Assembly (NCBI RefSeq): GCF_007004735.1 | Contig: NZ_SSNL01000003.1 | Coordinates: forward strand, 620,001 to 684,000 | From: Salinigranum halophilum | Lineage (GTDB): Archaea; Halobacteriota; Halobacteria; Halobacteriales; Haloferacaceae | Length of the DNA stretch: 64,000 nt | Direction of reading: 5' to 3' | Shown: positions 22,869 to 27,655 of the stretch, in pieces | How positions within the stretch are numbered: position 1 is the first letter of the stretch | Layout: each line of letters opens with the position of its first letter | Notes under the pieces: model-generated | Database searches by the model: none | Seen by the model: the letters and a program-made list of their open reading frames with translations, nothing else | Told to the model about the DNA's origin: nothing | Position numbers and translations under genes: made by a program

Positions 22869-22957
22869 CCGGGTCGGCCGGTGGTTCGGCCGGCGCGAAC
22901 CTGGCCCGGGTCGGCCGGGAGGACGGTGTCGCCGTCACCGGGGACTCGCCCCCGGTG
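22869..22957. repeat. GC-rich direct and inverted repeats between ppc and the Rieske gene
   Basis: The 13-base CCGGGTCGGCCGG occurs at 22869-22881 and 22906-22918, with a variant GGTTCGGCCGG between them (22883-22893). GGTTCG/CGAACC (22883-22901) and CACCGGGG/CCCCGGTG (22936-22957) can each form hairpins. The intergenic region holds no tRNA-like fold and no gene. Confidence 0.5.
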
Positions 22958-22980
22958 AGCGGTCGCACACTTCGTCACCC

Positions 22981-22986
22981 TTTTTA
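22981..22986 (+). promoter_or_regulatory. TATA-like TTTTTA of the Rieske gene
   Basis: TTTTTA lies 23-28 bases before the ATG at 23009. This supports a leaderless start and excludes the longer in-frame start at 22955. Confidence 0.5.
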
Positions 22987-23008
22987 CCGGCGGCACCAAC
23001 GATTCCAC

Positions 23009-23857
23009 ATGAGCGATAGCGACGACAAGTACCCCACAGAGTCCGGCCGTCGCCGGTTCGTGAAAGGCGTTGTCGGTGGCGCGGCGCTCGCCGGCGTCGG
23101 TGCCGCTGGCTCGGCGGCAGTCAACTCCGCGACCACCTCCCCCGGTGCGGGTGGCGGTCCAACGGAGGCGTACGCCATCGAGAACACGGCCGGTCCCGCC
23201 CCGCGTGGGATGCCGCTCATCCCCGTCGAGATCGACTCCGAGGGTTACCTCAAGGGTGTCTGGCCCGACGTGTCGACGGAGATGCAGGGCGGTATCGAGA
23301 TCGAGGTCGCCGAGACCGAGGACTTCCGCGGGAGCGGCGTCACCTACTCCTCCGAGTGGTTCCAGTACTGCGGCGTCCAGTCGTACCCACAGCTCGCGCC
23401 CTCGTACGACGGTGACAACTTCTTCCGCGCGGACTCGGGCGCCTACTCGTGGCAACAGGAGGTCTACAGCGCCGGCGACAGGCTCCACGTCGACGACTTC
23501 TCCGACTACCAGGAGTGGGGGAACGGCATCGGCACCGCCGGCATCGGCAAGCCCGCCACCGGCACGTGGCGCTCGCAGGACTCCGAGGACAGCATGCCGA
23601 TTCAGGTCATCAAGAGCGACGTCGTCGAACAGCGGGCTCCGGAGGTAGGCGGCTTCTTCGAGGCTGCGACCCAGGACGGCTTCGTCGCCTGGCTCAACAA
23701 GTGTACGCACTTCTGCTGCGTGCCGGGCTGGAAACAGTCGGCCGACGCCGCGAAGTTCGGCGACGCCGACGGGGTCTACTGCCAGTGCCACCAGTCGCTC
23801 TACGACCCGTTCTCCGTCGTTCAGACGCTGTTCACGGCGCTGCCCCGTCCCGACTGA
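23009..23857 (+). CDS. Rieske iron-sulfur protein, Tat-exported
   Basis: This 282-residue Rieske protein of the haloarchaeal cytochrome bc-type complex has an N-terminal Tat motif (SGRRRFVKG) followed by one hydrophobic helix that also anchors it. The 2Fe-2S box is complete: C232-T-H234-F-C-C237 and C258-Q-C260-H261. That supplies two Cys and two His ligands plus the structural disulfide pair. It ends with the family tail SLYDPFSVVQTLFTALPRPD. No cytochrome b, halocyanin or other complex III gene follows. The next gene is SAMP-like on the opposite strand, so this is an orphan or a paralogue. Electron transfer at the outer face of the membrane is inferred. Confidence 0.95.
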   Translation: MSDSDDKYPTESGRRRFVKGVVGGAALAGVGAAGSAAVNSATTSPGAGGGPTEAYAIENTAGPAPRGMPLIPVEIDSEGYLKGVWPDVSTEMQGGIEIEVAETEDFRGSGVTYSSEWFQYCGVQSYPQLAPSYDGDNFFRADSGAYSWQQEVYSAGDRLHVDDFSDYQEWGNGIGTAGIGKPATGTWRSQDSEDSMPIQVIKSDVVEQRAPEVGGFFEAATQDGFVAWLNKCTHFCCVPGWKQSADAAKFGDADGVYCQCHQSLYDPFSVVQTLFTALPRPD

Positions 23858-23895
23858 GCCGAGTTCGTCTCTTCTGTCGCCCCCGCTCAGACCGC

Positions 23896-24186
23896 TCAGA
23901 CACCTCCGCCGCTCACCGGCGGGAACAGCGCCAGTTCGTCCCGCGCGCTCACCGTGGATTCGAGCCCCTCGCCGCTCGTCTCGACGTTCTCTCCGTTCCG
24001 CAGGACGTTCACGTGGTCGTAGACCGTCCCGTCCTCGTCGAACACGCGGCCTTCGAGCCCCGGATTCCCCGCGACGAGCGCGGCGAGCGCGTCTCCGACG
24101 GTGGCGTCCTCGTCGACGTCGACGGTCACGTGACCGCCACCGGCGTACTCTTTCAGGTCGGCGAACAGCTTCCACTCGAGTTCCAT
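23896..24186 (-). CDS. SAMP1/MoaD-like ubiquitin-fold protein with an extra C-terminal residue
   Basis: This 96-residue beta-grasp protein is close to haloarchaeal SAMP1. It has MELEWKLFADLKEYAGG, DATVGDALAALVAGNPGLEGRVF and YDHVNVLRNGENV, and ends ELALFPPVSGGGV. SAMP1 and MoaD normally end exactly in Gly-Gly, which is adenylated by the E1-like UbaA for protein conjugation or sulfur transfer to molybdopterin. Here a valine follows three glycines, so the tail would need trimming before activation. It lies downstream of a membrane-protein gene on the same strand and converges on the Rieske gene. Confidence 0.93.
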   Translation of the reverse strand: MELEWKLFADLKEYAGGGHVTVDVDEDATVGDALAALVAGNPGLEGRVFDEDGTVYDHVNVLRNGENVETSGEGLESTVSARDELALFPPVSGGGV

Positions 24187-24244: not shown

Positions 24245-24925
24245 TCACCGACGCACCGCGCCGAGCACCCGCCACGGCCGGAGGTCGACGACCGAGACGA
24301 ACACGAGGAGGGCGAACGCGGCCGGTGCCGTTCGGAACCGGGGGTTCCCCGAGAGCGGGCCCCCCACGACGAACGCGAGGCTCAGTGCGGCGAGGGCGTA
24401 GCCGACACGCCCGACGGTCGCCCGCGGGGTCTCGGGTGTGAGCCAGGGGACGAGCGCGACCCCGCCACCGACGAGGAGCAGGCCGACGGCGACGGCGACC
24501 CCGAGCGACCCCGCGAAGAGGCCGACGCCGCCACCGCCGAAGACGGCGACGCCGAGGACGTGGTTGAGGAGCACTCCGCGCCGGAAGACGGACCAGTACC
24601 CCCCGGCGAACGAGAGGCGGTCGCTCGTGATGGCCGGCCACGAGCGCCCCGTCGAGAGATGGCCCTGACGGAAGGCACCGACGACGAGCGGCGTCGACAC
24701 GACGAGTACCAGCGCCAGCGGCTTGACGACGGTACCAGACTGCGGCGACCGGAACACCAGCCACAGCACCGGTGCCGAGAGCAAGAACACCTGTGCGAGG
24801 CCCTGGTAGCCGCTGACCCAGAGCCAGCGACCGACGGCCTCGGTGAGCGAGTCGGTCGCCGCCGTCGACTCGGCGGCGAGACGCTGGTCGTCGTTCGTCT
24901 GGAGCCAGTCTGACCGCGGGGACAT
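24245..24925 (-). CDS. Polytopic membrane protein of unknown function
   Basis: This 226-residue protein has about six hydrophobic segments after an acidic N-terminal region of 30 residues. A small loop in the middle (RQGHLSTGRSWPAITSDRLSF) is rich in polar residues. Glycine-rich helices (FGGGGVGLFAGSLG) and a short basic C-terminus follow. No transport or enzyme motif is recognised. It sits 58 bases upstream of the SAMP1-like gene in the same direction, so they may share a transcript. Confidence 0.82.
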   Translation of the reverse strand: MSPRSDWLQTNDDQRLAAESTAATDSLTEAVGRWLWVSGYQGLAQVFLLSAPVLWLVFRSPQSGTVVKPLALVLVVSTPLVVGAFRQGHLSTGRSWPAITSDRLSFAGGYWSVFRRGVLLNHVLGVAVFGGGGVGLFAGSLGVAVAVGLLLVGGGVALVPWLTPETPRATVGRVGYALAALSLAFVVGGPLSGNPRFRTAPAAFALLVFVSVVDLRPWRVLGAVRR

Positions 24926-25039: not shown

Positions 25040-26329
25040 TCAGTCCGCCGTGGGCTCCGTCCGCTCCGCCGTCGGGGGAACCTCGACGACGACGCTGGCT
25101 CGCGTCTCGAGTCGCCGCAGGACGTCGGGCCGAGCGACCACGTAGAGGGTGTCCCCGGCCTCGACGGTGCGTGCGCGCGGGGGAATCGCCTCGACGGTGC
25201 CCGTCGCGGGGCGCACGGCGGCGACCGTCACGTCGAGCGACCCCAGCGTCTCGCCGACGACGGCCGACGACTCGGGGACGGTGACCGTCGCCATCGTCTC
25301 GTCCGCCGCCCGGAGCAGGGAGGCGAACTCCCTGTCGGCGCGGGGTTCGGCCGGGAGCGAGACGAGACGGTAGGTCGTCGCCGTGTCGACCTGTTCCGCG
25401 TCGTCGGCGTCGGCGGCCACGGTGACGATGTCACCGCTCACGGCCCGCAACTCGGCGGTGAAGAGCCGTTCGGGCGGCCTGTGGACCTCGCGGTTCCCCG
25501 TCGTCTCGCCGTCCGTTCCACCGCCCGCGTCGACAGCGTCCGGTTCGTGCTCGACGCGTGCGGCTCGCCACACCTGGACCAGGTCCCCCGGACTCGCGGC
25601 GTTCGCCGGGTCCGCCCGCATGGAGACGGCGACGGTCCCGTGCCCGAGTGTCGGACCGAGACCCGCGGCACGACTCCCCACTGCGAGGAACTCCACCACG
25701 CCGCTGTCGGTGAGTTCGACGTCGACGTAGCCGACGCGGTAATCGTCTTTCAGTCGGGTCACCAGCCGGTCGCGGAGCTCCTCGACCGTGAGCCGGTTCG
25801 GGAACAGCAGGGACTTCCCGCCCATCTCCGCTTTCAGCTCCGCCGAGACGGGGTCGTAGCTCTCCATGTCCTCGATGTCGTCGGCCTCGGGGAGCGTCAC
25901 GGCGGTGACGCGCCCGACGGTGCGGACGATTCGCGAGACCTCCGCGTCGAGTTGCTTCACGCCCGCGACGGCGAAGACGTCCGTCGCCAGGCGGTCACCC
26001 ACCCGCCGCCCGACGGGCGCGGCGACCCCCGCCAGCCCGATGGCGACGACGTTGAACACGACCGCGTCGAGTTCGAAGATGCCCGCGGACGTGCCGCCGA
26101 CGAGTTGACTGAACAGCCCGACGGTGTTGAGATACAGCGCCACGACGGAGAGACCGAGCACCGTCGAGACGCCGATGGGCACCACCTCGCGGGTGTACCA
26201 CCGGAAGACGAGCGCCGCGACTCCCGACACCACGCCCGACGCGACGACGAACGCCACGAGTCGGCTCACGTCCTCGACGAGACTCGGGTCGTCGAGCGCC
26301 ACGCTCTGTAAGGCGACGAGGGCGCTCAC
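25040..26329 (-). CDS. Membrane protein with TrkA-C (RCK_C) domains, second of a pair
   Basis: This 429-residue protein has three N-terminal membrane segments within residues 1-105, a soluble PhoU-like or RCK-linker region, and two TrkA-C-like beta modules near 230-330 and 345-415. The last of these contains VVGETLGSLDVTVAAVRPATG and DTLYVVARPDVLRRLE, the usual RCK_C pattern. RCK_C domains often bind ligands such as c-di-AMP. It overlaps the upstream paralogue by four bases (ATGA) and forms an operon with it. It is divergent, via that partner, from a potassium channel gene. It lacks a channel filter, so sensing or transport regulation is more likely than ion conduction. Confidence 0.88.
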   Translation of the reverse strand: MSALVALQSVALDDPSLVEDVSRLVAFVVASGVVSGVAALVFRWYTREVVPIGVSTVLGLSVVALYLNTVGLFSQLVGGTSAGIFELDAVVFNVVAIGLAGVAAPVGRRVGDRLATDVFAVAGVKQLDAEVSRIVRTVGRVTAVTLPEADDIEDMESYDPVSAELKAEMGGKSLLFPNRLTVEELRDRLVTRLKDDYRVGYVDVELTDSGVVEFLAVGSRAAGLGPTLGHGTVAVSMRADPANAASPGDLVQVWRAARVEHEPDAVDAGGGTDGETTGNREVHRPPERLFTAELRAVSGDIVTVAADADDAEQVDTATTYRLVSLPAEPRADREFASLLRAADETMATVTVPESSAVVGETLGSLDVTVAAVRPATGTVEAIPPRARTVEAGDTLYVVARPDVLRRLETRASVVVEVPPTAERTEPTAD

Positions 26330-27540
26330 GCGGCGACCTCCACGAAACTGGAGAGCGCGTCGGGCCGTCCGACGGCGAAGAGTTCGTCACCCGCCGCGAT
26401 GGCCTGTGACCCCCGCGGGGTTATCCGCCACGTCCCCTCGTGACGGACGGCCAAGATTACCACGCGGTAGCTGTCGCGGACACTCACCTCGCCGAGGGTG
26501 ACCCCGTCGAGGACGCCGTCGTCGCGAACCGTGAGCTTCCGGAACCGGTATCCGCCGCGACGGAGCAGCGTGACGAGTTCGAGTTCCCGCCGGATACCCC
26601 GGGAGCGAACGACCAGGCGGTCGGCCGCGGCCGTCTCCAAGAGCGCCGTCGCGTCCGACCGGCTGACGGCGAGCGTGACGCGGCCCTCACCGCCCGTCAC
26701 CGTCGGGGAAACGGGCGGTGTCGGCGCCGCCGTGTCGGTGCCGCCGTCCGTCGCCACCGACTCCTTCTTCTCTCCCTTCGGGTTCGTCTTCGCGCTGAGG
26801 ACGGTGCCCGCGACCGTCCGGTCGCCGGTGGTCACCTCGACCTCGTCGCCGGCCGCCAGCCCGGTCGGTAGCAGGGCGGTCACCGACACCGCCCGTTTCC
26901 CCGACGGGATGCGTTTCGACAGGGCACCGACGGGCGGCGCGGCGCTCACCGTCGCCCGCGCGTTCTCGTCGAGGCGGACCGCCACGTCGGCGAGGTCGAA
27001 CTCGGAGCGGAGGCGGTCGGCGAAGCGCGTCTCGAGTTCGACGAGGGGGACGTCGGCGGGGAACGTCCACTCGCCCTCGCGGATGCTCCTCCGGAGGTCC
27101 GCCGACAGGGCGGGATACCCTTCCATGTCACCGACCTCCCCGGAGACGGTGACGCGGACCTCGCCGCGGCCGCCGACGAGTTCGATGACGTCCGTGTTGA
27201 GCGTTCGCTCCGTGAGCTTTCGGAGGTTCAGCCGCTTCGGGACCGACGCGCCGAGTCTGTCACCCTGGCTGTGGGCGTACAGCGACAGCATCAGGACGAC
27301 GAGGATGGCGACGATGAACCGCTCGCCGGAGCCGATGATGGTCGGGTCGTTCAGCGCCATCAACCCGCCGTTCGCGCCCGCGATGGCGAGCGAGAGGACG
27401 ACCACACCCAGCCCGGGTATCGTCACGTTCGTGACGTACTTGAAGACGAAGCCGAGTACCCCCGACACCAGTGCCGGGATGATGCCCGTGAGGAGACCGA
27501 GGTAGAGTCCGAAGAGGAACTCGACTGGAAGCGAAGCCAT
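26326..27540 (-). CDS. Membrane protein with TrkA-C (RCK_C) domains, first of a pair
   Basis: This 404-residue protein is homologous in layout to the next gene, with three membrane segments within residues 5-85 and two TrkA-C-type domains. The last domain reads LGEVSVRDSYRVVILAVRHEGTW and AGDELFAVGRPDAL. The start MASLPVEF at 27540 removes four nonconserved residues. The pair look like an ancient tandem duplication with considerable divergence. With the divergent RCK channel about 145 bases away, the block is a candidate potassium-homeostasis unit in an organism that keeps molar internal K+. Confidence 0.88.
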   Translation of the reverse strand: MASLPVEFLFGLYLGLLTGIIPALVSGVLGFVFKYVTNVTIPGLGVVVLSLAIAGANGGLMALNDPTIIGSGERFIVAILVVLMLSLYAHSQGDRLGASVPKRLNLRKLTERTLNTDVIELVGGRGEVRVTVSGEVGDMEGYPALSADLRRSIREGEWTFPADVPLVELETRFADRLRSEFDLADVAVRLDENARATVSAAPPVGALSKRIPSGKRAVSVTALLPTGLAAGDEVEVTTGDRTVAGTVLSAKTNPKGEKKESVATDGGTDTAAPTPPVSPTVTGGEGRVTLAVSRSDATALLETAAADRLVVRSRGIRRELELVTLLRRGGYRFRKLTVRDDGVLDGVTLGEVSVRDSYRVVILAVRHEGTWRITPRGSQAIAAGDELFAVGRPDALSSFVEVAA

Positions 27541-27655
27541 AGTCGCGCACACTCGTCTCGTCGGTATACAAGTTGCGCCCGCGGTTCGCCGTACTGCACG
27601 GCTGTTCTCCCCCGTGCTGTCGTGCCGGCGGGCCTGCGGCGTCCGTGACCGAGCC

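Follow-up and report, generated by a model that had tools for sequence, protein, structure and literature searches.

A short C-terminal tail beyond the di-glycine of a haloarchaeal SAMP1 and its probable removal by the desampylase JAMM1

In the MoaD/ubiquitin family, adenylation requires a free terminal glycine. This raises the question of how a SAMP1 protein could be activated when its reading frame continues past the Gly-Gly motif. We addressed this question for a gene of Salinigranum halophilum located in a stretch of 64,000 nucleotides of contig NZ_SSNL01000003.1 (hereafter, the window), taken from a genome of 4.2 Mb for which the nearest named relative found was Salinigranum salinum. The C-terminal end of the ORF reads ...DELALFPPVSGGGV and is followed by TGA, i.e. 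VSGG-GV-stop. The features concerned are the following.

23896 to 24186, minus strand: SAMP1 gene (MoaD/ThiS-like ubiquitin-like modifier), 96 amino acids including the tail, ATG start, TGA stop
23905 to 23916, minus strand: conserved C-terminal VSGG motif, residues 91-94, placed by alignment and by the end of the SAMP1 profile at residue 94
23899 to 23904, minus strand: two-residue tail Gly95-Val96 (GGT GTC), absent in genomes G165 and G166 of the same genus and RR in a third, G167
23896 to 23898, minus strand: SAMP1 stop codon TGA, read in the sequence

The ORF is a real gene and an orthologue of SAMP1. The NCBIfam SAMP1 equivalog NF041918 matched the protein with 122.3 bits (cut-off 60) over residues 4-94, corresponding to positions 2-91 of the 91 of the profile, which stops exactly at Gly94. 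The Pfam ThiS domain was found at 54 bits, and the nearest solved structures were those of Haloferax SAMP1, with PDB chains 4hro, 3po0 and 2l83 aligned over residues 3-94 (E ~1e-30). The window protein bears the VSGG motif of the family, in which V91 and S92 were invariant and G93 and G94 nearly invariant in the SAMP1 alignment. Because homology sets the functional di-glycine at residues 93-94, the tail comprises two residues, Gly-Val; a first-pass annotation, which described a SAMP1-like protein ending GGGV with one valine after Gly-Gly, was thus right about the extended end and wrong about a lone valine. A Gly-Gly at the very C-terminus is true of the characterised Haloferax SAMP1 and is not the state of this gene product, which would acquire it once the tail was trimmed. 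As the NCBIfam model does not demand a terminal GG and orthologues from 15 or more genera depart from it in the same way, the protein was kept as a SAMP1 orthologue, and its UbaA-dependent conjugation or sulfur transfer is predicted.

Orthology is also supported by gene order, counted over 80 named haloarchaeal SAMP1 loci, since two neighbours are shared across loci and the gene lies in the orthologous position.

25040 to 26329, minus strand: TrkA-C domain protein (Pfam TrkA_C), upstream conserved neighbour, with a homologue beside SAMP1 in 69 of the 80 loci
26326 to 27552, minus strand: second TrkA-C domain protein (Pfam TrkA_C), conserved neighbour, with a homologue in 67 of the 80 loci

Between SAMP1 and the TrkA-C genes lies a predicted hydrophobic ORF of 226 amino acids (24245-24925, minus strand) without Pfam match, a homologue of which adjoins SAMP1 only in the genus of the window. 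On the other side, the convergent neighbour (22955-23857, plus strand) has a Rieske-like CTH...CQCH motif recognised by eye and no Pfam match at 0.001.

Could the tail be an error, the true protein ending in GG? The closest relative, G166 (82 % identical), ends GGG GGC TGA GCG, and against it the window sequence, GGC GGA GGT GTC TGA GCG, looks like a six-base insertion ahead of a kept stop codon. The sequence TCTGAGCGG occurs twice in tandem at this stop codon (23883-23901, minus strand), a possible trace of slippage that altered the gene end. The bare end of G166 and this duplication would favour an assembly or sequencing error; nevertheless, when all single substitutions, insertions and deletions were tried in the last 60 bases of SAMP1, none yielded a bare PPVSGG end. 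A single-base error, also at 23899-23901, where the first-pass annotation had envisaged a sequencing error, is thereby ruled out, and since tails of similar size recur across many independent genomes, we regard a wider assembly error as highly improbable. An overlap with the next gene was also rejected as the cause of the tail, no overlapping gene following SAMP1 in the window.

The tail is not peculiar to the window protein. Within the genus, SAMP1 ends in GG in G165 and G166 and in GG-RR in S. salinum (G167), so the close relatives do not all end in GG, an outcome that would have spoken against the first-pass annotation. Within family f1, the exact GG-stop pattern was matched by SAMP1 in 79 of 170 genomes, and reading the ends of most of the others revealed some more bare ends and many short tails. 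Most Halorubrum species bear the tail [S/A/T/G][V/A]GR; genus g18 displays R, RA, RQ, MR, A, RVAE, RGATE and TDRAR; V and S occur in g13, ER in g3 and TRV in one g24 genome. Tails outside this family include AR, RR, GR, GRR, SRK, CRR and ARPDTDA. Altogether, the genera of the order with short tails number at least 15, bare GG being the majority state of haloarchaeal SAMP1. The first tail residue is mostly Ala, Ser or Gly, with Arg in 13 of the 58 distinct tails. Arg is the last residue in 40 of these 58, and in about half of the non-Halorubrum tails too. Two SAMP1 orthologues (L082 and L160) bear long tails past VSGG, of ~37 and ~47 residues, respectively. An apparent tail in G409 was dismissed, the pattern match there not being SAMP1.

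Distinct tails have a median of 4 amino acids, with 95 % of them not exceeding 8, whereas the computed loss of the stop codon of bare SAMP1 genes would add ~64 residues (median). Plain stop-codon loss with read-through is therefore ruled out, as the lengths do not fit, and the shortness of the tails suggests selection on their length.

To relate tails to the protease, we searched 392 genomes of the order with a profile built from ten JAMM1 proteins and determined the SAMP1 ends of these genomes by pattern and profile. Tails were present in 47 of the JAMM1-bearing genomes, against 186 with bare ends, while the genomes lacking JAMM1 gave 108 bare ends and no tail (Fisher 3.9e-9), these counts leaving out 45 JAMM1-bearing genomes with an unresolved SAMP1 end and 6 JAMM1-lacking genomes without detected SAMP1. 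Related genomes not being independent, each genus was also counted once per JAMM1 state, and tailed units then amounted to 15 of 61 with JAMM1 versus 0 of 30 without (p = 0.0019). One apparent exception, outside the 0/108 count, is G078, a genome 79 % complete with the tail RVAE and no JAMM1 found. The association holds at close range: in genus g24, one genome (G162) combines JAMM1 with the tail TRV, whereas G160, G161 and G159 (74 % complete) lack JAMM1 and end in a bare GG; in g68, G304 has both JAMM1 and a tail whereas G260 has neither. In G033, JAMM1 is internally deleted, the EVCGVL stretch with the catalytic Glu being gone, and SAMP1 ends in bare GG. Tails thus co-occur with the protease across genomes, as would be the case for JAMM-matured precursors. 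Because tails are seen only in genomes keeping JAMM1, this restriction suggests that JAMM1 trims them; co-occurrence is, however, no proof of cleavage.

The genome of the window encodes the candidate protease as a single copy.

G000:C3:451700-452098: JAMM1 desampylase gene (locus L121), single copy in the genome, NCBIfam desamp_Halo 185.5 bits (cut-off 130)

Its catalytic Glu27 and the residues H81-x-H83-x7-S91-xx-D94 are intact, HSHPQGPPRPSATD fitting HxHx7SxxD. The two partners of a JAMM-matured system are hence both encoded, i.e. a ubiquitin-like (Ubl) domain with Gly-Gly and extra residues, and a cognate JAMM protease with the catalytic Glu and the HxHx7SxxD motif. A second JAB-family protein, JAMM2 (L142), is also encoded, and trimming could be carried out by another protease such as this one instead of JAMM1.

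We consider it likely that the window SAMP1 is a short proprotein matured by JAMM1 before E1 activation, the cleavage, its site and its necessity all being deduced from sequence comparisons. Translation would yield a pro-SAMP1 with the two-residue C-terminal tail Gly-Val. As this tail would block the carboxylate of Gly94, adenylation by an E1-like enzyme of the UbaA type would be impossible until the JAMM1 metalloprotease of the same genome had cut right after Gly94. The E1-like enzyme would then adenylate the freed Gly94, leading to a thiocarboxylate or a conjugate, and the mature SAMP1, with its VSGG end, would fulfil its usual roles in lysine conjugation and in the MoaE-dependent synthesis of molybdopterin.

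Comparable maturation steps are known in other lineages. Eukaryotic ubiquitin and SUMO precursors likewise bear a tail after Gly-Gly that is removed before E1 activation, but there mainly by cysteine proteases. Another parallel is offered by the bacterial sulfur carriers QbsE (Cys-Phe tail) and HcyS (Ala tail), whose tails of one or two residues are removed by the JAMM proteases QbsD and HcyD, respectively, freeing Gly-Gly; unlike the window SAMP1, these carriers are encoded in biosynthetic operons together with their protease. Release of the C-terminus of ThiS/MoaD fusions by JAB cleavage was already predicted in 2006 (PMC1779556). In Caldiarchaeum subterraneum, CsJAMM (Csub_C0703) cleaves the SAMP precursors Csub_C0702 and Csub_C1603, which are extended SAMP/MoaD proteins like ours (PMC6043591), although this is a distant archaeal lineage, in which the jamm gene adjoins one samp gene by locus tags, the two being unlinked here. 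In the same organism the related enzyme CsRpn11 cuts the CsUb precursor precisely after Gly-Gly, small residues after the cut being tolerated or preferred and some bulky ones blocking it (PMC6043591), a selectivity to be set beside the first residues of the present tails, mostly Ala, Ser or Gly but also Arg; CsUb differs from the window SAMP1 in belonging to a true ubiquitin system with E2/E3 and in having a nine-residue tail. JAMM cleavage is thus published for Caldiarchaeum precursors, and we infer it for haloarchaeal SAMP1 tails.

Also close is the system of Haloferax volcanii, with an orthologous SAMP1 (3po0, 4hro, 2l83) of the same VSGG end and an orthologous JAMM1. HvJAMM1 cleaves a SAMP1-MoaE fusion exactly after the SAMP1 Gly, as determined by mass spectrometry, and does so in vivo as well; deletion of GG or VSGG abolishes cleavage, and DMSO respiration is sustained by the fusion only with jamm1 (PMC4443979). 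However, no maturation is required for the native Haloferax SAMP1, which stops at GG, and the fusion cut by HvJAMM1 was artificial. Trimming by a protease such as a JAMM-type desampylase, as proposed in the first-pass annotation, is well supported by this activity (PMC4443979), by the intact JAMM1 of the genome and by the confinement of tails to genomes with JAMM1, and should be read here as a prediction. JAMM-matured Ubl precursors are already known; in the open-licence literature, we found no paper on haloarchaeal SAMP1 tails or on their restriction to JAMM1-bearing genomes, neither of which seems to have been described there.

A different fate would be that the tailed SAMP1 is never matured, has lost its E1-dependent functions and plays another role, sulfur transfer being supplied by other SAMP/MoaD proteins. 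The need of adenylation for a free terminal Gly would fit such a fate, yet the SAMP1 body and VSGG are fully conserved and tails occur only alongside JAMM1. Furthermore, a search of the genome for PF02597 yielded just one more protein, the SAMP3-like L001, which is itself tailed (GG-CR), so that this search provides no bare-GG substitute for SAMP1. We hold this alternative to be unlikely.

The simplest competing account regards the tail as a neutral by-product without a role of its own, trimmed by JAMM1 or by non-specific carboxypeptidases, and persisting only since JAMM1, kept for desampylation, tolerates tails. This is compatible with maturation by JAMM1 and differs in denying the importance of that step. 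Tails vary widely within genera, that of the window having both bare and tailed ends, and most JAMM1-bearing genomes (186 of 233) have none, as would be expected of a by-product. In addition, the VGR-stop codons of Halorubrum tails overlap an inverted repeat, CGGCCGAT-AG-ATCGGTCG, then TTTCAAACG, and tail conservation in this genus may be partly due to this DNA/RNA-level element. On the other hand, non-specific carboxypeptidases would leave the absence of tails from all 108 JAMM1-lacking genomes unexplained, and the tails remain short, as if selected for length. We give the neutral account an even chance. The Halorubrum repeat and TTTCAAACG are conserved beyond the SAMP1 stop, perhaps as a 3' hairpin.

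Returning to maturation by JAMM1, a stronger form of it can be put forward only tentatively, our confidence falling somewhat short of even: in tailed haloarchaea JAMM1 would be required for any SAMP1 activity, so that one enzyme would both license and reverse sampylation, the tail would evolve freely while JAMM1 is kept, and loss of JAMM1 would need prior loss of the tail. If so, cells could keep inactive SAMP1 proprotein in a regulated pool, as is the case for eukaryotic Ubl precursors. A Ubl maturation step seems to have been gained and lost several times within one archaeal order. Whether the haloarchaeal desampylase serves recycling only or also maturation becomes simply testable, with natural short-tailed substrates at hand for studies of JAMM specificity, and mass-spectrometry searches for SAMPs must use the trimmed end.

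A further observation concerns SAMP3. The SAMP3-like protein L001 (G000:C2:252164-252460, minus strand) ends VAGG-CR; its TGA stop and the ATG start codon of the following gene are interleaved in ATGA, and its tail is due to this 4-base overlap. A similar overlap is seen in many Halorubrum SAMP3 genes, which end GG-A with GCATGA. The genomes of family f1 without intact JAMM1 (g8, g12, g14, G159-G161 and G033) are also without the SAMP3 VAGG motif, which is present in other members of the genus of G033; SAMP3 and JAMM1 seem to have been lost together.
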